Below are positions 12,787 through 31,602 of a stretch of DNA of 50,188 nucleotides, in pieces. Location of the stretch: positions 1-50,188 of the forward strand of contig CABZRS010000007.1 of NCBI GenBank assembly GCA_902528135.1, in the 5' to 3' direction. Every line of letters starts with the position of its first letter. The stretch's first letter is position 1. The notes under the pieces were generated by a model, which saw only the letters and a list, made by a program, of their open reading frames with translations, had not been told where the DNA came from and searched no databases. The position numbers and the translations under genes were made by a program. The DNA is from an uncultured Pelagibacteraceae bacterium (GTDB lineage: Bacteria > Pseudomonadota > Alphaproteobacteria > Pelagibacterales > Pelagibacteraceae).

Positions 12787-14073
12787 ATGAGAGTTTTAAA
12801 GGTTAATACTCAAGATATACGTTTTCCAACATCTAAAGAAAATCTTGGTACAGATGCAGTTCATGTAGATTGTGATTACTCAGCAACTTATGTAACAATC
12901 GAAACTGATGATCAGAATCTTACTGGTATAGGATTGACCTTTACAATTGGTAAAGGTAATGATTTATGCTGTAAATCAATTGAATATTTTAAAGAATTTA
13001 TAGAGGGCAAAAAGATACCAGAGATTGAAAAAGATATTTCATTAATTTGGGAAAAAGTAACAAATCATAGCCAATTACGTTGGGTAGGTCCTCAAAAAGG
13101 TGTTACTCATTTAGCAGCTGCAGCCTTTTTTAATGCAATTTGGGATTTGATTTCTAAATATTATAAAAAACCTTTGTGGCAATATATTATTCATTTAGAT
13201 ACAAAAGATTTAATTGATAAACTTTCCTTTACTTATCTTGATGATGTTTTAACAAAAAAAGAAGCAGAGGAAATTATAAACGAAAATAAGAAAAAACTAC
13301 CTGAGAATACATCCTCTTTAAGCTCAACAATTTTTCCAGCTTATACCACAGCTGTTGGTTGGCTTGGTTATTCTGATGAAAAAATGACAAAACTTGCTAA
13401 AGAGAATTTAAAAAATGGATGGACACATTTTAAAATGAAAGTAGGCCAAGATATAAAGAGAGATATTCATAGATGCCAATTAATTAGAAGCATAATTGGT
13501 AAAGATAAAAAATTAATGGTTGATTCTAATCAAATATGGAGTGTTAATGAAACTATTGAATACATTGGTCAATTAAAACAGTTTGATATAATGTTTTATG
13601 AGGAACCAACAAATCCTGATGATATTATTGGTTTCAAAAAAATTAAAGATGCCCATCCTGATGTTAAACTAGCTACAGGTGAGATGATCCAAAATAAAGT
13701 AATGTTTAAACAATTTATTGAAAATAAATCCTTAGATTATTGTCAAATAGATAGTTGTAGAATTGCAAGCATTAATGAAATTATTCCAGTTCTATTAATG
13801 GCTAGTAAGTATAATATTCCAGTGATACCTCATGCTGGTGGAGTTGGGCTGTGTGAGTATGTTCAACACTTAAATTTAATCAATAAATTTATTATTACTA
13901 AAAATGATTTATCTCTAAGCGAATATGCTGAAAGTTGCTCTGAACATTTTGAAAATCCAGCAATAATTGAAAAAGGGGGTTATGTTACTCCGACAGAACC
14001 TGGATATTCTGTTAGAATTAAACAAAAATCTTTAAAAGAGTTTGATTTTAATAATGGAAGTTATTGGAATTAA
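12787..14073 (+). CDS. L-fuconate dehydratase (enolase superfamily, FucD type)
   Basis: RFPTSKENLGTDAVHVDCDYSATYV, SQLRWVGPQKGVTHLA, YPAYTT-like FPAYTTAVGWLGYSDEK, FKMKVG, VDSNQIW, EEPTNPDD, GGVGLCEYVQHL match remembered FucD sequences. Confidence 0.85.
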   Translation: MRVLKVNTQDIRFPTSKENLGTDAVHVDCDYSATYVTIETDDQNLTGIGLTFTIGKGNDLCCKSIEYFKEFIEGKKIPEIEKDISLIWEKVTNHSQLRWVGPQKGVTHLAAAAFFNAIWDLISKYYKKPLWQYIIHLDTKDLIDKLSFTYLDDVLTKKEAEEIINENKKKLPENTSSLSSTIFPAYTTAVGWLGYSDEKMTKLAKENLKNGWTHFKMKVGQDIKRDIHRCQLIRSIIGKDKKLMVDSNQIWSVNETIEYIGQLKQFDIMFYEEPTNPDDIIGFKKIKDAHPDVKLATGEMIQNKVMFKQFIENKSLDYCQIDSCRIASINEIIPVLLMASKYNIPVIPHAGGVGLCEYVQHLNLINKFIITKNDLSLSEYAESCSEHFENPAIIEKGGYVTPTEPGYSVRIKQKSLKEFDFNNGSYWN

Positions 14074-19230: not shown

Positions 19231-19620
19231 ATGATTGAGCAGATTAGTATTTATTTAACAGCAATGATTTTGGGAATAATGCTATTCTTTTCTTTTGTCA
19301 TAGCGCCTGTTGTGTTCACTACATTAGACGAGGAAAATGCTCGGAAGTTCATCAGGAGGATATTTCCCTTTTATTACAATGTAAATCTTGCGATAAGTTT
19401 AATTGTTTTATTGGTATTTTTGTTTCTTAGTAAATTAGGTATTGATTTTTATTTAATTTTAGCGATCACAATTTTATTTGCTGCATCAAATTATTTATTA
19501 ATGCCGTTAATTAATAAATATAGAGATGAAAAGCAGGATAAAAAATTTAAATATTCGCACTTTATCTCTGTGGTTATTAATTTTGTTCAAATGATTTGTT
19601 TAGTATTTCTTTTAATTTAA
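19231..19620 (+). CDS. DUF4149/TMEM205-like membrane protein
   Basis: LGIMLFFSFVIAPVVFTTLDEENARKFIRRIFPFYY, hydrophobic helices. Confidence 0.75.
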   Translation: MIEQISIYLTAMILGIMLFFSFVIAPVVFTTLDEENARKFIRRIFPFYYNVNLAISLIVLLVFLFLSKLGIDFYLILAITILFAASNYLLMPLINKYRDEKQDKKFKYSHFISVVINFVQMICLVFLLI

Positions 19621-19625
19621 GAAAT

Positions 19626-20384
19626 TTAAGTATTTTGTCTTTTAAATTTTAAATAAATATTTTTAAGTATCGGACGATAAAGTTCGTAAATTGTAAGACA
19701 AATAAAGTACATATTTGAGACTAGCCATATACCAAGAAACAAATAATCAAAATTACTTTTAAGTACAAAAAATGAGCTTAATAAAATTTTAAAAGAGGAA
19801 ATAAACCATAGAACCATAAATATAACTGAATATCTTCTGTATTTATTTACTCTTAATGGATGAATAAATTTAATTGGTATAAATTTTAATAATATACAAG
19901 CAGATATAAAAAATAAATTATAAATCTGCGATAGATCAAACAAATATAAGTAAAAAATTAATATGTTCCAAATGCATGGAAAACCTTTGTAAAAATTATC
20001 TGAGGTCATCAAATTATTATTTGAATAAGATATTGCTGATATAATCAAAATAATTGAAGGTATAATTATTTCAAAAGGTGTGGGAACAAACTTAAACCAA
20101 TATATCATTACTGATGGAATTATTATGTAATTAAAAAAATCAATTACACTATCAAGCATTTTTCCATCTATATTTTTTGCAAAAACAGATACTTTAAATT
20201 TTCTAGCTAATGTTCCATCGACAGCATCAATTAATAATGCAAGACCTAAAAACAAAAAGGCTGAAATTTTATCATTTTTGAATATGCATATTAACGCTAA
20301 AAAACCTGAAATAAGTCCAGAACATGTTAACAAATGAACAGACCAAGCTAGTAGATAATCTAAATCTTTTTTAGTTTTAAACAT
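19626..20384 (-). CDS. pcs: CDP-alcohol phosphatidyltransferase, phosphatidylcholine synthase-like
   Basis: AWSVHLLTCSGLISGFLAL, ALLIDAVDGTLARKFKVSVFAKNIDGKMLDSVIDF CDP-OH-PT motif. Confidence 0.82.
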   Translation of the reverse strand: MFKTKKDLDYLLAWSVHLLTCSGLISGFLALICIFKNDKISAFLFLGLALLIDAVDGTLARKFKVSVFAKNIDGKMLDSVIDFFNYIIIPSVMIYWFKFVPTPFEIIIPSIILIISAISYSNNNLMTSDNFYKGFPCIWNILIFYLYLFDLSQIYNLFFISACILLKFIPIKFIHPLRVNKYRRYSVIFMVLWFISSFKILLSSFFVLKSNFDYLFLGIWLVSNMYFICLTIYELYRPILKNIYLKFKRQNT

Positions 20385-20531
20385 GCGCTTTTTTTATCTT
20401 ATGAGCAATAATTTCGAAGATTAATTCTTGTCGCGCTAGAAATTGTTCAAAATATCTCCATTAAAATTTTAAATTATTTACATTCATGTTAAAAATTGAC
20501 AAATTTATTTATTAACCAAAAGGAAAAACCT

Positions 20532-21545
20532 ATGAAAGATCCCACTGTAATAGGAGTTATTGGCTTAGGTAATGCTGGTAAACCAATTTTAAATAATTTA
20601 CATAAATCTAAGAAATATAAGCTTATTGCTTTTGATATTGATAAGAGCAAACTTAATCAAGTTCCCAAAGAAATTATTAAAGCGAAATCTATTAAAGAAC
20701 TTGCGGAGAAATGTAAGGCAGTTTTAACATGTTTACCTAAACCAGAACATGTTCTGAAGGCTGTTGATGGTGAAGATGGTTTATTACAAAATGCAACCTC
20801 TGGGTTGATTTGGATAGACACATCCACAACTGATTTTAAACAAACACAACAATTGTCAGAAAAAGCAAAAACTTTTGGTGTTTCAATGTTAGAGGCTACT
20901 CTAACTGGAGGTGTTCATGCATTACAAAATAATAATATGGTTTGCTTAGCTGGAGGAGATAAAAAAATTTTCAACAAATGGAAAAAAGTTTTACAAGATG
21001 CAATTGGTGAAGTTGTTGTTCTTTGTGGAAATATAGGGGCAGGAGCTATTGCAAAAGTTGTTTCAAACATGCTTGCATTTACTAATATGGTGGCAGCATC
21101 GGAATGCATGATGATTGCTAAAAGAGCAGGATTAGATTTAGAGAGTTTTTTTGATGCAATTAGAGTTTCAGCTGGAAATTCTTTTGCCTGGGAAACAGTT
21201 GTACCTCATATATTTAATCAAAAATATGAAGCAGGATTTACAATGGATTTAGCCTGTAAAGACATGAATTTAAGTTACTTACTTGGACAACATTTAAATG
21301 TGCCATTAGATTTGCATATGGAAGTTAAAAAGAAGATGGACAAAGCAAGATTACAATATGGAGATAGTGAAGGGTGTTATGTTTATCCACGTACTCTGGA
21401 AGATGAACTTAGTGAACCATTATCTTTAAAAGGATGGGATAATTGGGGTTATGATATTAGAGTTGTTGACGGATCAATTGTTGTAAAACATAAAAACAGA
21501 CCTGTTTCAAAACATCCTCAATATAATTCAGAAATAAAAGTGTAA
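20532..21545 (+). CDS. NAD(P)-dependent oxidoreductase, 3-hydroxyisobutyrate dehydrogenase family (start moved to ATG 20532)
   Basis: IGVIGLGNAGKPIL, TGGVHALQNNNMVCLAGG, KVVSNMLAFTNMVAASECM, KDMNLS; AAGGA-type RBS before 20532. Confidence 0.9.
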   Translation: MKDPTVIGVIGLGNAGKPILNNLHKSKKYKLIAFDIDKSKLNQVPKEIIKAKSIKELAEKCKAVLTCLPKPEHVLKAVDGEDGLLQNATSGLIWIDTSTTDFKQTQQLSEKAKTFGVSMLEATLTGGVHALQNNNMVCLAGGDKKIFNKWKKVLQDAIGEVVVLCGNIGAGAIAKVVSNMLAFTNMVAASECMMIAKRAGLDLESFFDAIRVSAGNSFAWETVVPHIFNQKYEAGFTMDLACKDMNLSYLLGQHLNVPLDLHMEVKKKMDKARLQYGDSEGCYVYPRTLEDELSEPLSLKGWDNWGYDIRVVDGSIVVKHKNRPVSKHPQYNSEIKV

Positions 21546-21562
21546 AACAAATTGATTAAAAT

Positions 21563-21603
21563 TCTTGTTCAATTATAAATATTAACATAAATACTCATGA
21601 AAA
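21563..21603 (+). repeat. 41-bp imperfect direct repeat, copy A
   Basis: tcttgttcaattataaatattaacataaatactcatgaaa versus copy B at 30693-30733: 4 mismatches over 41 bp counted by eye. Confidence 0.8.
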
Positions 21604-22979
21604 TTTTATTCATTTTTATTTTTTCTTTTTTCATTTTTAATTTCGCATCAGCTATTAGTGATTTACCTCCATGCAAAGGAAAAAATTATGATAAATATGT
21701 TAATTGTTATGGTTCATATAAAGATAAAGATTACTCAAAAATATATAATTATCCAGGATTAACTAATAATTATATAGGTGAATTTGGAGACCTGCCAGGT
21801 TTGGCTAATGGAAAAGGTATTGCTGAGGTTTATTTAAATGGAGAGTATGGTGGAACATATATTGGTAATTTTAAAAATGATAAATTGGACGGATTAGTAA
21901 CATATATAGAAAATGATTTTATTGAAGTTTCGAAATATAATCTTGACGTCCCCGTAAGTGGGACTTCTTTCATGCTTGAATATAACGGTGTTTATGTCGG
22001 TCAGCTTAATAGAGCTGGAGATTGGCATGGTCTTGGAACAGTAATAAATGGAGGAGCATGGTCTCACAAACTCTTTAAAAATGGTGAAGAACAAGAAACT
22101 GCATTAAGTGAAATAAACCATTCTCCATGCAAAGGTCAAGATCGTTCTAAATGGTACAACTGTACACTACTTTACGAATACTTCAATGTCACACGAAATC
22201 AATATATTGTTTGGAAATCTTATCAAAACGCTACTGAAATTTACTCAGGAGAGATGGGACCAACAAAAAACAAAAAACCCATGTACAATGGAAAAGGTAT
22301 TCTTGAATTAATCTTGGATGGAGAACTATATAGTATTTATATTGGTGAATTTGAAAATGGAGAAAGAAATGGTTATGGGACTGAATATTATATAGAAAAT
22401 AATTCTATTTATGTTGGACAATTTAAAGACAATCGATGGAATGGTTATGGCAATTATTTTCAAAGAGGTGAAAAATACATAGGTTATTTTAAAAATGATA
22501 ATTATCATGGATTAGGCATCAGAATTGATAAAGATACAAAAGATAAAAAAATTTTTCGCTCTTTCGAATTAAGTGAACCTCTTTACGAAGTTAAGCACAA
22601 TGTTATGATAGTTAAAGATTTAGAATTAGGTTGTAAAAGTAATAAACTTGATGGAGCTGATGTCAAAGAATTTAATTTAAAATTAAAATTAGATAAGAAT
22701 TTAAATACATTAACTGTCAGTTCAAAATTAGTAGATGGGGATTATGGAAAACTCGCTTATTATTCAAACTTTATAGTGGCGGAAATTCTTCTAAATTCAG
22801 ATGAATATCTGATAGGGTTTTATAGAGATTATGAGCAAGATAAAAACTTTCATTTTATGTTAGACAAGTTTAATGGAAAATTTAAAGTTGTTCAAATTTT
22901 TGATAATAATGATAAATATTTAATTAAAACACTTGGTAGAACAACTTTAAATGCTCAATGCCAAAATTATTTATATTAA
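21597..22979 (+). CDS. Exported MORN-repeat protein
   Basis: Signal-like N-terminus and repeated YIGNFKNDKLDG, YIGEFENGERNGYG, YVGQFKDNRWNGYG, YIGYFKNDNYHGLG units. Confidence 0.88.
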   Translation: MKILFIFIFSFFIFNFASAISDLPPCKGKNYDKYVNCYGSYKDKDYSKIYNYPGLTNNYIGEFGDLPGLANGKGIAEVYLNGEYGGTYIGNFKNDKLDGLVTYIENDFIEVSKYNLDVPVSGTSFMLEYNGVYVGQLNRAGDWHGLGTVINGGAWSHKLFKNGEEQETALSEINHSPCKGQDRSKWYNCTLLYEYFNVTRNQYIVWKSYQNATEIYSGEMGPTKNKKPMYNGKGILELILDGELYSIYIGEFENGERNGYGTEYYIENNSIYVGQFKDNRWNGYGNYFQRGEKYIGYFKNDNYHGLGIRIDKDTKDKKIFRSFELSEPLYEVKHNVMIVKDLELGCKSNKLDGADVKEFNLKLKLDKNLNTLTVSSKLVDGDYGKLAYYSNFIVAEILLNSDEYLIGFYRDYEQDKNFHFMLDKFNGKFKVVQIFDNNDKYLIKTLGRTTLNAQCQNYLY

Positions 22980-23101
22980 TAACACCTAATACATCAGATA
23001 TATTTGTGTGTGTGGCAAATTTTAAAAGTAAATCATATATACCCTCGTATTGGAATTTTTAGTCACACAGCACTTAAAATATTTTTAAAGAAAGATTTAA
23101 C

Positions 23102-23965
23102 TTATTTATCTTTCACAGAAATTAATTCTGGATATTTATCAAACAAAATTTCAGCAGGTCTCTCTCCAGACCTTAATGGATCAATCAGCATTACTTGGCT
23201 AGGCATAATATTAGTTAAATTGCAATCTGCGCCAAAGAGTTCAAAATAATTAAGTATATCTGAATACCATCTCACTTCAGCTTCCTTTGGTGAAGTCACT
23301 TCAAATGCAACTTTATTTTTACCAAAGTGTTCAAGAACTCCAGTTAATACATTTGACTTACTATCATGAAGTTCAATTTCTTCATGATCAATAAGCATTG
23401 AAAATGCGCCATATTCAAAAAAAGGTTCAGCACTTTCAACAATTTGCTTAAATGTTGCAGGAGTATTTTTTTTTGTCTTGTCCCATCCACTTTCTGGATG
23501 ATGTTCATAAATTATATTCATTCCATTTTTAATCGCATGATTGCACCAAGCTTTAATTTGATTTTCAGGGATGTCTCCAAATGTATTCATGAATTCCATT
23601 GCAGAAAATCCTAAATCTGCCGCAACATCAATTGCTTCATTTACTTTTCCCTTTTTAAAAGCCTTTATAAAATAACCATGATCCAAGTAAGGCTCTATCG
23701 AATGTTTTTTGTAAAGATCATTTTTACGTTCCAACCATTCCTTTGGATGTCCCAGTACTTGCATTGTTGCAATTTTAACATGGTCAATCCTATTACCAGC
23801 AACCTCTAGAAAGTCTTCTAATTCACGAAGTCCCATTCTTTCTTGGTACCAAGGACCTTCGTCAAAACCTACATCTTTCAACCATAGTTGTGATTTAGTT
23901 CTGGGCTTAGGTTCTATAGCATTTAAATCAAATACTTTTGATATCGAATTTTTTGTTTTAGACAT
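23102..23965 (-). CDS. ComA/phosphosulfolactate synthase-like TIM-barrel protein (paralogue 1)
   Basis: RIDHVKIATMQVL, DLGFSAMEFMNTFGD, NIIYEHHPESG, KVAFEVTSPKEAEVRWYSDILNYFELFGADCNLTNIMPSQVMLIDPLRSG align with remembered ComA motif order. Confidence 0.7.
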   Translation of the reverse strand: MSKTKNSISKVFDLNAIEPKPRTKSQLWLKDVGFDEGPWYQERMGLRELEDFLEVAGNRIDHVKIATMQVLGHPKEWLERKNDLYKKHSIEPYLDHGYFIKAFKKGKVNEAIDVAADLGFSAMEFMNTFGDIPENQIKAWCNHAIKNGMNIIYEHHPESGWDKTKKNTPATFKQIVESAEPFFEYGAFSMLIDHEEIELHDSKSNVLTGVLEHFGKNKVAFEVTSPKEAEVRWYSDILNYFELFGADCNLTNIMPSQVMLIDPLRSGERPAEILFDKYPELISVKDK

Positions 23966-24054
23966 GTTTTTACTTTTATATTAGTCAAATAGATAAATTT
24001 CTAACCAAAAACTTCATTTTCAATGTTCTTTAAGATAAAAAAAAATATAATTAG

Positions 24055-24084
24055 TTGAAAGACCCATAATGGACACGTTATACT
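24055..24084 (+). promoter_or_regulatory. Probable promoter for tctC (TTGAAA - 18 nt - TATACT)
   Basis: TTGAAA 24055-24060, TATACT 24079-24084; strong SD AAGGGGGGAA before ATG 24116. Confidence 0.55.
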
Positions 24085-24115
24085 ATGTTAAACAATATTC
24101 TCAAGGGGGGAAATT

Positions 24116-25189
24116 ATGCGTAAAATTCTAATATTAATATTAATGTCGTTATTCTCGTTTGTATCCATTGGAAATGCAGATGTGAATTTCGCTGGCAAAA
24201 CAGTTACATGGGTTGTGCCATTTAAAGAAGGTGGTGGTACGAGTAGATTTGCAAGATTTATTCAACCTTTCTTAAAAAAATATTTACCTGGAAATCCTGA
24301 TGTCCAAATCATGCACATACCAGGTGGAGGAGCTATTAAGGGTTCAAATTACTTTGAAAAAAATGCTAAAGCAGATGGAACTTTTATTTTTGGATGCTCA
24401 ACTTCAGTTATAGTTAATGTTGCGACTGGAAATCCACTTGTTAAATATAATCTTAGTGAATACCGACCAGTAGTTTTGCTACCGCAAAATACTCATTGGT
24501 TCACACGTTCAGATTTAGCTGAGCCTCACGATCTATCAAAAATTAAAGAAAGAAAATTGGTTCTCTATGCATTGAAAACTCCTGCATCTGCAGATTTATT
24601 TCATATATGGATTTATGAGAAACTTGGTATCAAAGGAGCTAAACCTATACCTGGTCTTTCATCCTCAGGAGGTTATCAAGCATTTCTAAGAGGTGAAATT
24701 CATCTAAGTTCACATGGTGCAGCGAATTATGTAAAAAAAGTTAAGCCTGAAATAGAAAAAGGAAAAGTTGTAGATTTAATGACACTTGGAATAATTGGAG
24801 CTGACGGTTCAGTTTCTAGAAATCCTTTGGCACCAAATGCACCTACATTTCCTGAAATGTATGAGAAGGTGAATGGTAAAAAACTTGAGGGTGATGACCT
24901 AGAAGCTTATTATGCAATAGGTGCTGCATGGTCTCAAGCATCTAAAGCAATGATGCTCCCAGCAGATGCATCCGATGAAATAGTAAAAGCATACAGAGAT
25001 GCAGCTATTAAAATGACAAATGACCCAGAGTTTAAGGCTAAAGCTGTAAAAGCTCTTGGACCATTTCCATTAATCATAGGAGAAGAAGCTGGTGAAATTA
25101 TTAAAAAGGCTGCAGTATTTTCTGATACTACTAAAAAGCAATTAAATGCAGCTTTAAAGAAACATAGATTCACATATAGAGTTCAATAG
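24116..25189 (+). CDS. Tripartite tricarboxylate transporter substrate-binding protein (TctC family)
   Basis: Signal peptide, KTVTWVVPFKEGGGTSRFARFIQPFL, MHIPGGGAIKGSNYF; upstream of TctA-like permease. Confidence 0.88.
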   Translation: MRKILILILMSLFSFVSIGNADVNFAGKTVTWVVPFKEGGGTSRFARFIQPFLKKYLPGNPDVQIMHIPGGGAIKGSNYFEKNAKADGTFIFGCSTSVIVNVATGNPLVKYNLSEYRPVVLLPQNTHWFTRSDLAEPHDLSKIKERKLVLYALKTPASADLFHIWIYEKLGIKGAKPIPGLSSSGGYQAFLRGEIHLSSHGAANYVKKVKPEIEKGKVVDLMTLGIIGADGSVSRNPLAPNAPTFPEMYEKVNGKKLEGDDLEAYYAIGAAWSQASKAMMLPADASDEIVKAYRDAAIKMTNDPEFKAKAVKALGPFPLIIGEEAGEIIKKAAVFSDTTKKQLNAALKKHRFTYRVQ

Positions 25190-25205
25190 AACAAATAAAA
25201 AAAGT

Positions 25206-25235
25206 GCTGCTAGCTAATAGCTAGCAGCTTTTTTT
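25206..25235 (+). terminator. Intrinsic terminator: GCTGCTAGCT-AAT-AGCTAGCAGC-TTTTTTT
   Basis: Perfect 10-bp stem, 3-nt loop, T7 tract, A7 tract upstream. Confidence 0.9.
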
Positions 25236-27221
25236 ATGGAACAATTATTAGCTGCACTTTTTCAACTTTTTGAGCCTACTCATTTAGCATTTCTATTTGC
25301 AGGTACTTTACTTGGTTTAATTGTTGGTATACTTCCAGGTATGGGTGGAACATCAGGTTTAGCCCTTGTTTTACCTTTCGTTTTTACAATGGAGCCCTCA
25401 CATGCTCTTGCAATGATGATTGGAGTTTTGGCTCCTACGACAACTTCTGATACTTTTCCTGCTGTGCTTATGGGAGTACCTGGTACTGCAGGATCTCAAG
25501 CAACAGTGATGGATGGTTTTCCACTTTCCAAAAAAGGTATGGCAGCAAGAGCGTTAAGTGCTGCCTTTAGTGCTTCGTTGCTTGGGGGTATCTTCGGGGC
25601 ATTTATATTATCAATATCTATTTATTATGCCATTCCAATAATAATGGCATTTGGTTTTGGAGAACAGTTCCTATTAGTTGTGCTTGCTTTATTGATGGTT
25701 GGAGCTCTTACAGGTGACAATTTATTTAAAGGTATTGCTTCCTGTTTTTTAGGTTTAATTATTGGTTCAATTGGAACAGCCCCAATTACAGGAGATCCAA
25801 GATATACATTTAATACATTGTATCTTTTAGAAGGTGTTCCTCTTGTTGTTGTTGGACTAGGATTGTTTGCAATTCCAGAAATAGTTGGCCTACTTGATGC
25901 TAAAGGCTCAATTGCAAAATCACTGAATACAAAAAAAGGGTGGCTCACAGGTTTAAAAGATGTAGTAAAAAATTGGTTTTTAGTTTTAAGATGTTCTACT
26001 CTTGGTTGTCTAGTTGGAGCTTTACCAGGTTTAGGAGGAACAGTAGTTGATTGGATTGCCTATAGTCACTTAAAACAAACCACAAAAGATACTTCTCAAT
26101 TTGGTAAAGGAGATATCAGAGGAGTTATAGCACCTGAGTCTGCAAATAATGCAAAAGAGGGTGGAGCGTTAATTCCAACATTGATTTTTGGAATACCTGG
26201 TTCTGGTAATAAGGTTTTATTACTTGGAGGTTTTGTTTTAATTGGAATTGAACCTGGTTTAGATATGGTAACTACAAACTTAGATCTTACCTATCTAATG
26301 ATTTGGTCATTAGCTATTGCAAATATTTTAGGTGCTGGAATTTGTATGGGTTTTTCATCCCAAATTTCAAAATTCACTTTAGTTCCATATTACATACTTG
26401 CACCTGTGATGGTTTGTTTAATATTTTTTGCAACATTTAACATTAATAGGGACTGGTATGATTTTATTGGATTGTTATCATTTGGTATACTTGGTATTAC
26501 ATTTAAAAACTTTGGTTGGTCTAGACCGGCACTTTTAATAGGGTTCTTTTTATCAAGCAAAGTTGAACTTCTAAGCTATCAAACTCAAGCAGTATATGGT
26601 TTAAGTTTTTTATCACGTCCTGTTTCAATAATTCTTATAATTTTATGTCTTGCTACTATCGTTCTTTTGACAAAGCAAAAGTTTGATAACAATTATAGAT
26701 CTGATCGCATTAAAGGTAAGCTTACTCAAATTTATTATATAGTCATATTACTCTATCTACCTTTATCTATGATTTGGTTTACTAGTAGTTTAGATTATCG
26801 TGCTAACTTGTTTCCAATAAGTCTAAGTGTAATAGCTTTATCACTCTTAGTTTTTATACTTATTATCAAAATCGCAGAATTAAAAAATTTACCATTTTTA
26901 AATAATACTTTGATGAAGTTTGCTCGTTCAAATATTTTTGAAATTAGTGGTAACTTTAATAACCAGCTTTTTTATTATTTAAGTTTTATTGGTTTCCTAT
27001 TAATGAATTTTATATTTGGTTTTCCAATTGCTGCAGCACTTTTTATTAATATATTTATATTATTTCATAATAGGAAAGCTTATGTCTCATCAATTTGTAT
27101 TTCTGCTGTATTGATGGTAATACTCTGGTCGTTGTCATCCCTGCTAACTTTACAGTTTCCAAATGGACTGATAGGATTATTAATTGATTTGCCTTGGTGG
27201 CTCGGCGGGCAAATGAATTAA
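25236..27221 (+). CDS. TctA permease with C-terminal TctB-like extension (fused tripartite tricarboxylate transporter membrane subunits)
   Basis: GTLLGLIVGILPGMGGTSGLALVLPFVF, ALLVGVLAPTTTSDTFPAVLMGVPGTAGS-type, CLVGALPGLGGTVVDWIAY; extra about 150-aa hydrophobic C-terminus. Confidence 0.88.
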   Translation: MEQLLAALFQLFEPTHLAFLFAGTLLGLIVGILPGMGGTSGLALVLPFVFTMEPSHALAMMIGVLAPTTTSDTFPAVLMGVPGTAGSQATVMDGFPLSKKGMAARALSAAFSASLLGGIFGAFILSISIYYAIPIIMAFGFGEQFLLVVLALLMVGALTGDNLFKGIASCFLGLIIGSIGTAPITGDPRYTFNTLYLLEGVPLVVVGLGLFAIPEIVGLLDAKGSIAKSLNTKKGWLTGLKDVVKNWFLVLRCSTLGCLVGALPGLGGTVVDWIAYSHLKQTTKDTSQFGKGDIRGVIAPESANNAKEGGALIPTLIFGIPGSGNKVLLLGGFVLIGIEPGLDMVTTNLDLTYLMIWSLAIANILGAGICMGFSSQISKFTLVPYYILAPVMVCLIFFATFNINRDWYDFIGLLSFGILGITFKNFGWSRPALLIGFFLSSKVELLSYQTQAVYGLSFLSRPVSIILIILCLATIVLLTKQKFDNNYRSDRIKGKLTQIYYIVILLYLPLSMIWFTSSLDYRANLFPISLSVIALSLLVFILIIKIAELKNLPFLNNTLMKFARSNIFEISGNFNNQLFYYLSFIGFLLMNFIFGFPIAAALFINIFILFHNRKAYVSSICISAVLMVILWSLSSLLTLQFPNGLIGLLIDLPWWLGGQMN

Positions 27222-27237
27222 ATAAATAGAATTTATA

Positions 27238-28032
27238 ATGACTGATGTAACATTTCCTAAATTACCTTTCATAAAAAGAAAGGAAAAACCTCGTGAGACA
27301 GGTATAAATTATGTAAGAGCACCTGTGATGGTGGGAAATTGTATTGATGATTACCTGGAGGCATATGCAAAACTTGTTGATATCTTTAAGATTTCTGGGA
27401 AACAAGGTGCAATGATGAGCAAAAAATCTCTATTAAGATTTATTGAAACATGCAAAAAACATAGTGTTCAAGTTGCATTAGGAAATCCAATTATGGACGT
27501 TGCATTGTCTGGTGGTAAAGAAGTGGTAGATGATTATCTAGATACTGTTGTTAATCTTGGTATTGATATAATTGAAATTTCAAGAATTGCTCGTTCTTTA
27601 GATGATGATGAGATGTGTAGACTGATCGAAAATGCAACAGGCAAAGGGATAAAAGTTATTAATGAGGTTGGTGTTGCGTTTGCACATTCCAAGGTTATCG
27701 AGGAAGAAATATTTGTAGAACGAATTAAAATGCAATCTAAAAGATTTATTGAGGCTGGATCTTGGAAAATATTACTAGAATCAGAAGGTTTAACAGAAAA
27801 TCTTGATAAGAAAGATTATAGATGGAATGTAATTGATAAAATCATTAGTCCACTAGAATTGAATCAGTTTATGGTTGAAGCTGATGATCAGGACGTATTA
27901 TCTAAATATATAGAAATCTATGGACCAGGTATAAATATGATGGTTGATTATAGTAGAGTTCTCAAAATGGAAGATGCACGACTGGGGTATGGACCATCTC
28001 AATCCTTATGGGGTAAAGTAGTAAAATATTAG
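27238..28032 (+). CDS. ComA/phosphosulfolactate synthase-like protein (paralogue 2)
   Basis: LVDIFKISGKQGAMMSK, NLGIDIIEISRIARSL, IKVINEVGVAF, SWKILLESEGLTENL, FMVEADDQDVLSKYIEIYGPGINMMVDYSRVLKMEDARLG follow ComA motif order. Confidence 0.75.
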   Translation: MTDVTFPKLPFIKRKEKPRETGINYVRAPVMVGNCIDDYLEAYAKLVDIFKISGKQGAMMSKKSLLRFIETCKKHSVQVALGNPIMDVALSGGKEVVDDYLDTVVNLGIDIIEISRIARSLDDDEMCRLIENATGKGIKVINEVGVAFAHSKVIEEEIFVERIKMQSKRFIEAGSWKILLESEGLTENLDKKDYRWNVIDKIISPLELNQFMVEADDQDVLSKYIEIYGPGINMMVDYSRVLKMEDARLGYGPSQSLWGKVVKY

Positions 28033-28121
28033 ATTAAATTAATATAATTTTTTTAATAAAGTTATTCGCTATAACCAGAAACAAACTAGAAATCAGTGAG
28101 ATAAAATATTATTGTTAATAT

Positions 28122-30602
28122 ATGAAAAAATTTTTTATATTTTTATTATTTTCAATCTTTACTTTTACAAATTCAATTGCATCTGAAGTTATTTATGCAG
28201 ACGAAGCAAAAGAAATGATGGATGATCATGTTAAAAGAAGTGATCTTCTCAAGGTTCCGCTTCCCAAAATAAATAGAATTATAAAAGATTACGAAAGATA
28301 TAAATTTTATCGAACAAATGTAATGGCAAATAATTGGAATTATACGAAAGATCTCTGGAAAGAGGAAATTGATGGAAAAATTTTAACTAAACAATTTTGT
28401 AAAATAGTTATAATTGAATTTAAAATTCAAAATATACCTACAATTGAAGAAAAAATTTTCAGAAGATGTTTTAGGAATTTAGCAAGTTATGCCACAACAG
28501 ATTTTGAAGGTGGAATAGATTTGTATCGAGAAATAATTTTAAATATTACAACTGCCAAAAAAGATTATTGGGTTTATGAAAGCTCAGGTAAAGATCAATT
28601 TAATCCAAAAGATTATCAAGTATGGGGTATGCTTTCCCCAATATTTACTTTTTATACGGTAAATTATGATCAATTTAATTTTACAGAAGATCAGCATAAA
28701 ACTATCCAAAATTATTTTAAAGATAAATCAATGATTGAAAGACTTGATAGAGATGGCAATCGTAGTAGAACAAAACTTTGTCCAATTAAAAATCCTATGA
28801 AGCTGAATAAACAAAGACATAAAGTTAATAATTGTGGAACAGTAAGATTAAGATTTGCTTCAGCTCAATTAGCTATGGCTATAGTTATGCAAGATAAAGA
28901 ACTTTGGTCAAAAGGATTGTGGGATTTAGATTATGTTTTAAGCATGGTAGGTAAAGAAGGATATTTTATTCCAACAGCTGCTAAAGGTTGTAAAGCACTT
29001 GGATATTCGCTTTCAACAAGCCGTTTATTTTCGACTAATGTTGAGTTATTAAATTTAGCAAAATTTAATCTTCTTGATTATAAAACAAGGCATGGAAAAA
29101 CATTAGCTGAAGCTTACGAGCAACTTTTCAAAATATATGATGATATTACTTTAATAAAGCATATAGCAAAAAAAGGAGTTGGCGCATTTTCATGTGGAAC
29201 AAAACCTTTTAAAACACACATGGAACACGTTATTTATGAACGTGGTAGTCTTGAAAATTACCAACATGATTTAAAAACAGGAAGGATCCCAGATAAACAA
29301 TATTATATCAATTGGTCAATGAGATTTGTGACAGAAAAACATCCTGAGTGGTTTGAAGAAAAATTTTCACCTCATGAAGTTAAAGTATTTCCCTTTCATG
29401 GTAATTACTATCACATTCAACCAATTGAGATATTTAATGCAAATATAATGTCAGAGGGGGGCAATCTTTGGACAAAAAAACTATCTGAAAAACCAACTGA
29501 TTACGAAAAAAAATTTAGATATTCAGAGTTTAAAATTTTTAATAATATTGTTGGAGGAATATTTAAGCTTAAATCAAATGATGTAAAATTTGCATCAAGC
29601 ACAAATCCTATTAAGCCAAATAAACAAAAAGATCACGAATTATATAAAGCACGTATTAAAGGAAATTTGATATCTGAAGATAATAAAAATATTAAATTTG
29701 GTGGAGCATTGGTTTACCAGGATAAATTAACAGAAGAAATGAAGGATCAAATTTTAGCTGTTTATATAGGAAGGAAGGCAGATGAAGATGCACTCATGCC
29801 TTTGTTTAGGCACCGCGAAAATATTATAAATAAATGTGGTACGAGATTTAACGACAGTAGTTGGATGAACTTTATAAGTGAGACTAATAATGTAGAAATT
29901 GCAGAAAACCAACAATGTATTCATAATTATTTTTCAGAATCAAATGATGCTGAGTCTTTAGAATTATTCGAGGCAATCTTGGCTGGGTCAAACTCTATAT
30001 TAAAATATTTAAAAGATAATGAAAATTTAAGAACTTTACCATATGATATAAAAAAAATAGCTAAAGCTAAAATAATTGAGGAAATTGTCGAACCAACAAA
30101 ACAAAATTTTACAATCTTTAATTATGAAAATGGAACATTTAAACTTAAATCAAACAATGTAAACTTCTCATCCAATACAAATCCAATAAAGCCAAAAAGG
30201 AAAAAAGAAGATCAATTATACAAATCAATTATAAAAGGAAATTTAATAAATAAAGTTGATAAGAAAGTGAAACTTGAAGAAGCTTTGGTTTATAAGAGAA
30301 AACTGGATACTGATGACCAAATTTTAGTAATTAATATTGGAGAAGAACCTGGAGAAGACGCAATTATACCTCTTTTTAGACACCGAGAAAATATTCAAAG
30401 TAAATGTGGTACTAGATTGTTAAATCAATGGGGTTGGATGAGCTTCATAAGTATGACCAAAAATGAAAAAATCGCAAAAAACCAACAGTGTCACTATGAT
30501 TATTTTAAAGAAGTAGACGACGTCGAGGCTCTTGAATTGTTTGAGAGCGTTTTAGGTGGAACAAGTTCCATTTTAAATTATTTACAAGCCAATGTTAAAT
30601 AA
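28122..30602 (+). CDS. Exported 826-aa protein: alginate-lyase-like helical N-terminal half (tentative) plus two tandem copies of an unknown ~165-aa domain
   Basis: Signal-like MKKFFIFLLFSIFTFTNSIAS; TVRLRFASAQLAMAIVMQDKELWSKGLWDLDYVLSMVGKEGYFIPTAAKGCKALGYSLSTSRLF; C-terminal duplication 29529-30023 / 30108-30599. Confidence 0.8.
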   Translation: MKKFFIFLLFSIFTFTNSIASEVIYADEAKEMMDDHVKRSDLLKVPLPKINRIIKDYERYKFYRTNVMANNWNYTKDLWKEEIDGKILTKQFCKIVIIEFKIQNIPTIEEKIFRRCFRNLASYATTDFEGGIDLYREIILNITTAKKDYWVYESSGKDQFNPKDYQVWGMLSPIFTFYTVNYDQFNFTEDQHKTIQNYFKDKSMIERLDRDGNRSRTKLCPIKNPMKLNKQRHKVNNCGTVRLRFASAQLAMAIVMQDKELWSKGLWDLDYVLSMVGKEGYFIPTAAKGCKALGYSLSTSRLFSTNVELLNLAKFNLLDYKTRHGKTLAEAYEQLFKIYDDITLIKHIAKKGVGAFSCGTKPFKTHMEHVIYERGSLENYQHDLKTGRIPDKQYYINWSMRFVTEKHPEWFEEKFSPHEVKVFPFHGNYYHIQPIEIFNANIMSEGGNLWTKKLSEKPTDYEKKFRYSEFKIFNNIVGGIFKLKSNDVKFASSTNPIKPNKQKDHELYKARIKGNLISEDNKNIKFGGALVYQDKLTEEMKDQILAVYIGRKADEDALMPLFRHRENIINKCGTRFNDSSWMNFISETNNVEIAENQQCIHNYFSESNDAESLELFEAILAGSNSILKYLKDNENLRTLPYDIKKIAKAKIIEEIVEPTKQNFTIFNYENGTFKLKSNNVNFSSNTNPIKPKRKKEDQLYKSIIKGNLINKVDKKVKLEEALVYKRKLDTDDQILVINIGEEPGEDAIIPLFRHRENIQSKCGTRLLNQWGWMSFISMTKNEKIAKNQQCHYDYFKEVDDVEALELFESVLGGTSSILNYLQANVK

Positions 30603-30692
30603 TAATTAACTAAAATTTAAATAGGATTTTATAGGACAACTAAACGTAGACTAGACGATAGGGAGATAAAATAAAAAAAATTTACTTATTAG

Positions 30693-30733
30693 TCTTGTTG
30701 AATTATAAATATTGGCATAAACACTCATGAAAA
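30693..30733 (+). repeat. 41-bp imperfect direct repeat, copy B, overlapping the presumed tRNA-Leu promoter
   Basis: tcttgttgaattataaatattggcataaacactcatgaaa; TTGTTG - 17 nt - TAAACA is promoter-like and well placed for the tRNA at 30742. Confidence 0.8.
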
Positions 30734-30741
30734 CAACTCAT

Positions 30742-30827
30742 GCCCTCGTGGTGAAATTGGTAGACACAAAGGACTTAAAATCCTTGCCATTTATGGAGTG
30801 CCAGTTCGAGTCTGGCCGAGGGCACCA
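30742..30827 (+). tRNA. tRNA-Leu (anticodon TAA), CCA encoded
   Basis: GCCCTCG/CGAGGGC acceptor, anticodon arm AAGGA-CTTAAAA-TCCTT, GTTCGAGTC T-loop, long variable arm. Confidence 0.96.
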
Positions 30828-30831
30828 CTAG

Positions 30832-31602
30832 ATGTTAAAATCTCATATTCTTTTTGACAATACCAAAACATCAAAAAAAATTAAAAATTTTCTAGATCAT
30901 AAAATTAAAAATATATCTTTAGGTAAGTGTAATCTGATCATTGTTGTTGGTGGTGATGGTTTTATGCTTTCAGCACTCAAAAAATATAACAAGTATAAAA
31001 AACCATTTTATGGAATCAATGCTGGTAGTTATGGTTTTTTAATGAATAAATTTTCTTCAAAAAATACCATTAAAAACCTACCTAAAGCAAAGTCTGTTAC
31101 AATTTCACCTTTAGAAATGATTGTTAGAAACAAATATAATAAAATCAAGAAGTCTATTGCAATAAATGAAGTATCGATATTAAGACAAAGCAGGCAAACA
31201 GCTTCATTAGAAATTTCTAGTGGATCTCAGAAAATTATAAAAAAATTAGTTTCTGATGGAATATTAGTATCTACGCCAGCTGGAAGCACTGCATATAACA
31301 TGTCAGTTTATGGTCCTATACTAAACTTAGACTCAAAGAAGCTATCCATTAGACCGATTAGTGCTTTTAGACCAAGAAGATGGAAAGGAAGGGTGGTAAG
31401 TGACAAATCAAAAATTGTAATCAAAAATCTTAACATACAAAAAAGACCAATTAGTGCGGTAGCTGATAACTATGAAGTAAGGAATGCAAAAACTATCTCA
31501 ATTAAAATAAATAAAAAAATTAAGTTTAATCTTCTGTATGACTCAAATAGAAGTCTTCAAAAAAAAATTAAAATAGAGCAAATCAGAAAAGAAACAAATT
31601 AA
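30832..31602 (+). CDS. nadK: NAD kinase
   Basis: LIIVVGGDGFMLSALKKY, GINAGSYGFLMN, DGILVSTPAGSTAYNMSVYGPIL. Confidence 0.93.
   Translation: MLKSHILFDNTKTSKKIKNFLDHKIKNISLGKCNLIIVVGGDGFMLSALKKYNKYKKPFYGINAGSYGFLMNKFSSKNTIKNLPKAKSVTISPLEMIVRNKYNKIKKSIAINEVSILRQSRQTASLEISSGSQKIIKKLVSDGILVSTPAGSTAYNMSVYGPILNLDSKKLSIRPISAFRPRRWKGRVVSDKSKIVIKNLNIQKRPISAVADNYEVRNAKTISIKINKKIKFNLLYDSNRSLQKKIKIEQIRKETN

Follow-up and report, generated by a model that had tools for sequence, protein, structure and literature searches.

Two divergent ComA-family proteins bracket a tripartite tricarboxylate transporter in a SAR11 gene cassette: a candidate locus for the uptake and catabolism of a small organic acid

What can a SAR11 bacterium gain from a tripartite tricarboxylate transporter (TTT) enclosed by two relatives of the phosphosulfolactate synthase ComA? 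The question is raised by four genes in 50,188 bases (GC content ~30%) of contig C7 of an uncultured Pelagibacteraceae bacterium (genome of 1.06 Mb, ~79% complete), a stretch referred to as the window. An original prediction proposed that two ComA-like proteins bracket the transporter in an undescribed uptake-and-catabolism locus, and that the imported compound is possibly a sulfonated or sulfite-adduct C3 acid processed by the two proteins in different steps or as a heteromer. Both open reading frames were found exactly as predicted, namely comA1 at 23102..23965 on the minus strand (287 aa) and comA2 at 27238..28032 on the plus strand (264 aa). Between them lie tctC (24116..25189, plus strand, 357 aa), predicted to encode the periplasmic substrate-binding protein, and tctAB (25236..27221, plus strand, 661 aa), predicted to encode a fused TctA-TctB membrane protein; the divergent genes comA1 and tctC are separated by a promoter region of 150 bp (23966..24115). 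Our preferred but tentative answer is that these genes represent a mobile accessory cassette for the uptake and catabolism of a small organic acid, with a sugar acid (polyhydroxy carboxylate) as the likeliest candidate.

Both proteins belong to the ComA family. The Pfam profile PF02679 (cut-off 25.2 bits) was matched over nearly the full length by comA1 (138.1 bits, E 4e-40) and comA2 (159.8 bits, E 1e-46), neither protein matched any other Pfam family, and the two are the only ComA-family genes in the whole genome. They share 22% identity with each other (E 4e-11). Among solved structures, those nearest to them in sequence are phosphosulfolactate synthases (1QWG for either protein, and also 1U83 for comA2), and the predicted structures matched the folds of 1QWG, 9CM1, and 1U83 best, with 1QWG as the top PDB match of both comA2 (E 8e-14) and comA1 (E 5e-11). 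The AlphaFold model of comA2 is good (pLDDT 80), and that of comA1 is weak (pLDDT 65, with low confidence at both ends). For both proteins, the next-closest folds after ComA were ketose 3-epimerases acting on D-psicose/D-tagatose. No match was found in the viral contigs searched with the comA1 alignment.

Membership in the family does not make the two proteins phosphosulfolactate synthases. The equivalog model TIGR03849 scored comA1 and comA2 at 62.4 and 73.1 bits, respectively, far below its cut-off of 280 bits, albeit this model is archaeal and bacterial ComA may also score low. In the family trees of 36 and 42 members, the enzymes of M. jannaschii and B. subtilis grouped with bacterial genes in a canonical clade (support 100/99), from which comA1 and comA2 were excluded. 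Each of the latter fell in a separate clade of its own beyond the canonical one: the deep clade of comA1 includes a 49%-identical relative from Allorhizobium, and comA2 is sister to a clade of genes usually adjoining MmgE/PrpD (joint clade 100/99). In the numbering of the M. jannaschii enzyme, Arg170 is present in 6/6 canonical members but in 0/36 others of the 42-member set, and Lys137, kept in 6/6 canonical sequences, is lost in comA1, the entire comA2 branch, and one further sequence. The Lys137 position is occupied by Glu in comA1 and Ala in comA2, and the Arg170 position by Glu in both. We presume that the two residues are important for the chemistry of phosphoenolpyruvate and sulfite. 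In contrast, both proteins retain the strand-2 Lys, the C-terminal Arg, and the acidic side chains on strands 4, 5, and 7. Judged from their sequences, comA1 and comA2 are divergent ComA-family TIM barrels outside the canonical phosphosulfolactate synthases.

The transporter is likewise divergent. TctC of the window, a long form, gave no match to PF03401 in the Pfam search even at E 10. Its orthologues matched this model weakly (E 0.02-0.04), as did the TctC of locus L060 (E 6e-5), to which the window protein is 40% identical over 312 residues. The PDB entry closest to the window protein is a TctC (E 0.0025), and its plasmid relatives, at 35-37% identity, are annotated as TTT binding proteins. 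The tctAB product contains a TctA domain (PF01970, 397 bits, residues 17-434) and ~220 residues beyond it in the same chain; these gave no Pfam TctB match, and we infer the TctB part from the chain length and from the lack of a separate tctB gene. The import of some carboxylate by TctC-TctAB is well supported.

The scan of GTDB genomes with comA2 recovered 31 loci from Pelagibacteraceae single cells, one from a Rhodobacteraceae single cell, and one from an alphaproteobacterial metagenome-assembled genome (MAG). The order of comA1 (minus strand), tctC, tctAB, and comA2 is constant in 31/31 SAR11 loci (L030 is cut inside comA1), and the spacing is nearly constant, while the genes flanking the four-gene block vary. 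The length of the comA1-tctC intergenic region is also kept across SAR11, its best conserved part being the tctC side, and no Rfam match indicative of a conserved RNA element was found in this region or elsewhere in the locus. As a ComA gene above the cut-off was present in 0/118 further genomes sampled from the family, the block is accessory. We compared the window with ten near SAR11 loci and found that the median synonymous divergence (dS) of the four cassette genes is 0.13-0.27, as opposed to 0.53-0.78 for the flanking genes, and that the ratio of nonsynonymous to synonymous divergence (dN/dS) of the cassette is about 0.02-0.07 for nearly all pairs. Given the low dS relative to the flanks and the low dN/dS, we read the cassette as recently exchanged between SAR11 lineages and maintained under purifying selection.

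The same unit was found in three Rhodobacteraceae genomes with the layout of comA1 (minus strand), lacI (minus strand), tctC, tctAB, and comA2; it is whole in G1090, ends at a contig edge inside tctAB in G1030, and is split over two contigs in G498. Being kept in 31 SAR11 loci and these three genomes, the linkage between the comA genes and the transporter is not a product of chance. Altogether, neither of the outcomes set beforehand as refuting the original prediction, that is, a better match of the proteins to other TIM barrels or the absence of conserved linkage, was observed, and the conserved comA/TTT unit has the appearance of a not yet described locus for uptake and catabolism, as had been proposed. 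No publication on the combination of comA1, tctC, tctAB, and comA2 was found in the open-access literature, which does not cover most subscription journals.

The Rhodobacteraceae loci also bear a putative operator. In each of the three genomes, the region between comA1 and lacI contains a perfect 14-bp palindrome, TGATAACGTTATCA. Before tctC, the palindrome recurs exactly in G1030 and as TGATAACGATATCA in G1090 (the contigs of G498 break there). A further genome, G1139, carries lacI, tctC, tctAB, and comA2 with TGAGAACGTTCTCA before tctC. Exact copies of TGATAACGTTATCA were confined, among the compared loci, to those of G1090, G1030, and G498. As the palindrome or a near copy precedes both transcription units in Rhodobacteraceae, comA1 and the tctC-tctAB-comA2 operon are, on this operator evidence, one regulon. 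The regulator is of the LacI family and, by sub-cut-off scores, closest to RbsR/CytR-type sugar repressors; LacI regulators usually respond to sugars or sugar acids. No lacI gene was found within the four-gene block of SAR11.

Which carboxylate, then, is imported? The gene context of relatives lends moderate support to a sugar acid. In the MAG locus L056 (genome G499), genes for UxaC, a UxuB-type protein, and UxuA directly follow comA2, and in G1139 comA2 is followed by a UxaC fragment; no comA1 was found in either genome. Since these two relatives lacking comA1 have uxaC directly after comA2, ComA1 may perform a step comparable to that of the hexuronate isomerase UxaC. The 49% comA1 relative on plasmid pAtS4c of Allorhizobium ampelinum is the last gene, and the only enzyme gene, of a CUT1 sugar ATP-binding cassette (ABC) transporter operon, the binding protein of which most resembles sugar- and glucose-binding proteins of solved structure. 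No comA2 relative was found on that plasmid. The occurrence of comA2 without comA1 (G1139) and of a comA1 relative without a comA2 relative (pAtS4c) renders an obligate ComA1-ComA2 heteromer, one of the arrangements in the original prediction, unlikely. As a separate observation, the pAtS4c gene (L147:13944-14816), at the end of its sugar ABC operon, adjoins the traR/tra genes of this conjugative plasmid.

If the substrate is a sugar acid, TctC would capture it in the periplasmic space and the TctA-TctB fusion would carry it into the cell, driven by an ion gradient. Two cytoplasmic steps, by ComA2 and ComA1 in succession, would run via a metal-stabilised enediolate, and the product would enter central metabolism. 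As the barrel of ComA is kept along with its carboxylate ring and the residues of phosphosulfolactate synthase are lost, the two proteins probably act by enediolate chemistry, whether isomerisation, epimerisation, or beta-elimination, with an unphosphorylated sugar acid as substrate; the particular reaction types and the order of the ComA2 and ComA1 steps are speculative.

Several observations weigh against a sugar acid. The likeness to the epimerases, a weak hint at a sugar acid, is a general TIM-barrel similarity (TM about 0.5). The adjacency to uxaC comprises two loci, one of them with a fragment only, and the comA2 copies of both L056 and G1139 are strongly diverged. UxaC was not found in any of the seven SAR11 carriers tested (G000 and six others) or in G1030, which precludes a complete uronate route of the E. 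coli kind. For the non-canonical ComA proteins, we came upon no documented substrate or activity. Genes of tricarballylate/aconitate type, not sugar-acid genes, adjoin the nearest annotated relatives of the transporter (35-55% identity), and the MmgE/PrpD company of many other ComA-like genes fits hydroxylated di- or tricarboxylates.

The last two points lead to the main rival, in which the cassette serves a hydroxylated di- or tricarboxylate of the citrate, aconitate, or methylcitrate type and the ComA-like proteins are its lyases or hydratases. The annotated systems with a fused TctAB and a long TctC that are closest to the cassette adjoin TcuA, TcuB, 4-oxalomesaconate tautomerase, and a dehydrogenase of isocitrate/isopropylmalate type. 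We further surveyed 22 additional non-canonical ComA loci drawn from samples of the class, the phylum, and Rhodobacteraceae, in which the presence of a transporter was not a selection criterion. TctA occurred within 10 kb in 9/22 loci against an expectation of 0.79 based on the TctA count of each genome, and nine was reached in 0/200,000 simulations under a simple Poisson model; related genomes are not fully independent. This association with TctA, seen across Alphaproteobacteria, favours the reading of the cassette as an uptake-and-catabolism unit. The other neighbours were MmgE/PrpD (seven loci), DUF3604 (five), and sulfatase (five). MmgE/PrpD lies immediately upstream of the gene of the comA2 sister clade in Methylocystis, Methylosinus, Salinibacter, and Halopiger, and Paracoccus pTAV3 groups a ComA-like gene, a TTT, PrpD, TcuA, and PrpF. 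On the other hand, none of these partner genes is within the cassette of the SAR11 or Rhodobacteraceae loci, and the LacI regulator, the linked hexuronate genes, and the comA1 relative in a sugar ABC operon speak against a di- or tricarboxylate. We thus regard this rival as possible but rather unlikely, and a sugar acid as the substrate that fits most of the evidence.

Three recurrent associations stood out in their own right. MmgE/PrpD directly followed by a comA2-like gene is a conserved pair spanning two domains of life (L149, L152, L159, and L161, of methanotrophs, Salinibacter, and a haloarchaeon). A DUF3604 gene (~750 residues) is located within ~3 kb of a non-canonical ComA gene in L063, L107, L108, L110, and L113; we know of no description of such a pair. 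A ComA-like gene, a TTT, and a sulfatase (~480-510 residues) were found together in three distinct loci (L060, L111, and L112).

The sulfonated or sulfite-adduct C3 acid of the original prediction, to or from which the two ComA-like enzymes would add or remove sulfite, fared poorly. Both proteins are true family members with the same fold, and a TTT importer for sulfolactate (SlcHFG) is known in other bacteria. Nevertheless, the loss of Arg170 and Lys137, the position outside the canonical clade, and the TIGR03849 scores described above all oppose sulfite chemistry, neither a kinase nor ComB, SuyAB, or any further sulfonate gene lies in the block, and the relatives stand amid LacI, uronate, sugar, or other carboxylate genes. 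This substrate is therefore improbable. Slightly less probable still are accessory or stress proteins that resemble plant HSA32 and merely sit beside the transporter: the comA2 clade lacks Lys137 and Arg170, its C-terminal motif (N..FVDHSQ..LE) presumably resembles that of HSA32, and to our knowledge no reaction is known for HSA32, but the operator common to comA1 and the transporter, the conserved acidic barrel residues, the statistical association of the wider family with carboxylate transporters, and the Allorhizobium relative as the only enzyme-like gene of a sugar transporter operon all point to catabolic enzymes.

The cassette resides in a variable SAR11 island (19231-30832 of the window; also in L027-L059, L129, and L133). 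In the cassette-free genomes L129 and L133, orf 19231 and ppnK flank the same island, but its contents differ. The cargo of the island, in varying combinations, comprises HIBADH-like, 2-keto-4-pentenoate-hydratase-like, phosphatidylcholine-synthase-like, and glycosyl-phosphoglycerate (GpgS/MpgP-like) genes. We considered two functional links to these neighbours and rejected both. The GpgS/MpgP-like genes (of glucosylglycerate/mannosylglycerate type, named by eye) lie beside the cassette in several SAR11 loci, but the gene pair occupies the same island in the cassette-free L129, L133, L137, and L138, and the link is non-specific. The HIBADH-like dehydrogenase gene (20496-21545) and the 2-keto-4-pentenoate-hydratase-like gene are common neighbours, yet they are missing in many cassette carriers and were thus taken as island variation. 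Directly downstream, 28122-30602 encodes an 826-aa protein with a signal-like N-terminus, two related C-terminal segments, and no Pfam match; this gene adjoins the cassette in some SAR11 loci only. About 9 kb upstream of the cassette, 12787-14073 encodes a sugar-acid dehydratase of the enolase superfamily that resembles L-fuconate dehydratase.

Despite their very small genomes, SAR11 bacteria are the dominant group of the surface ocean, and a central question is which dissolved compounds they import. Four compactly arranged genes that are common to SAR11 lineages and Rhodobacteraceae, and that evolve under strong purifying selection, should enable their carriers to use one specific compound, and TctC offers a direct handle for identifying it. 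Beyond the cassette, a large branch of the ComA family looks catabolic but is mostly labelled as phosphosulfolactate synthase, and the survey suggests that this non-canonical branch serves carboxylate catabolism. The original prediction rightly cautioned that database annotation misleads here, as the plasmid relatives of the comA genes are named 'phosphosulfolactate synthase'; relabelling the branch would keep coenzyme M or sulfolactate metabolism from being wrongly predicted. In its most far-reaching and still doubtful form, the proposal is that the ComA fold was co-opted to form a novel class of sugar-acid isomerase/epimerase (ComA1 replacing UxaC) together with a second ComA-fold enzyme, that the SAR11 cassette is an undescribed sugar-acid catabolic route, and that most bacterial 'phosphosulfolactate synthases' not associated with ComB or coenzyme M act as catabolic enzymes in operons that take up carboxylates or sugar acids.

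The cassette can finally be placed among known systems. With the phosphosulfolactate synthases ComA/YitD (PF02679, TIGR03849; 1QWG, 1U83), comA1 and comA2 share the family, the barrel, and the Lys of beta-2, the Glu of beta-4, beta-5, and beta-7, the Asn of beta-8, and the C-terminal Arg, but they differ in the lost Arg170/Lys137, the exclusion from the canonical clade, the scores below the equivalog cut-off, and the lack of ComB/coenzyme M neighbours. Among the canonical genes surveyed, the neighbours were ComB (L074) and an aspartase/argininosuccinate-lyase-like gene (L125, named by eye), neither of which was found at the SAR11 cassette locus. The MmgE/PrpD-paired clade of Methylocystis, Methylosinus, Salinibacter, and haloarchaea, possibly HSA32-like, is the sister of comA2 with the same residue losses and ~28-35% identity, but its partner is MmgE/PrpD instead of a TTT, LacI, and comA1. 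Like the TTT (TctABC), the cassette has a TctA domain and a probable TctC-type binding protein, whereas its TctA and putative TctB form one chain and its TctC has diverged beyond the reach of the Pfam model. Hexuronate operons (uxaC-uxuB-uxuA) adjoin comA2 in L056, and as a uxaC fragment in G1139, but are absent from the SAR11 cassette.

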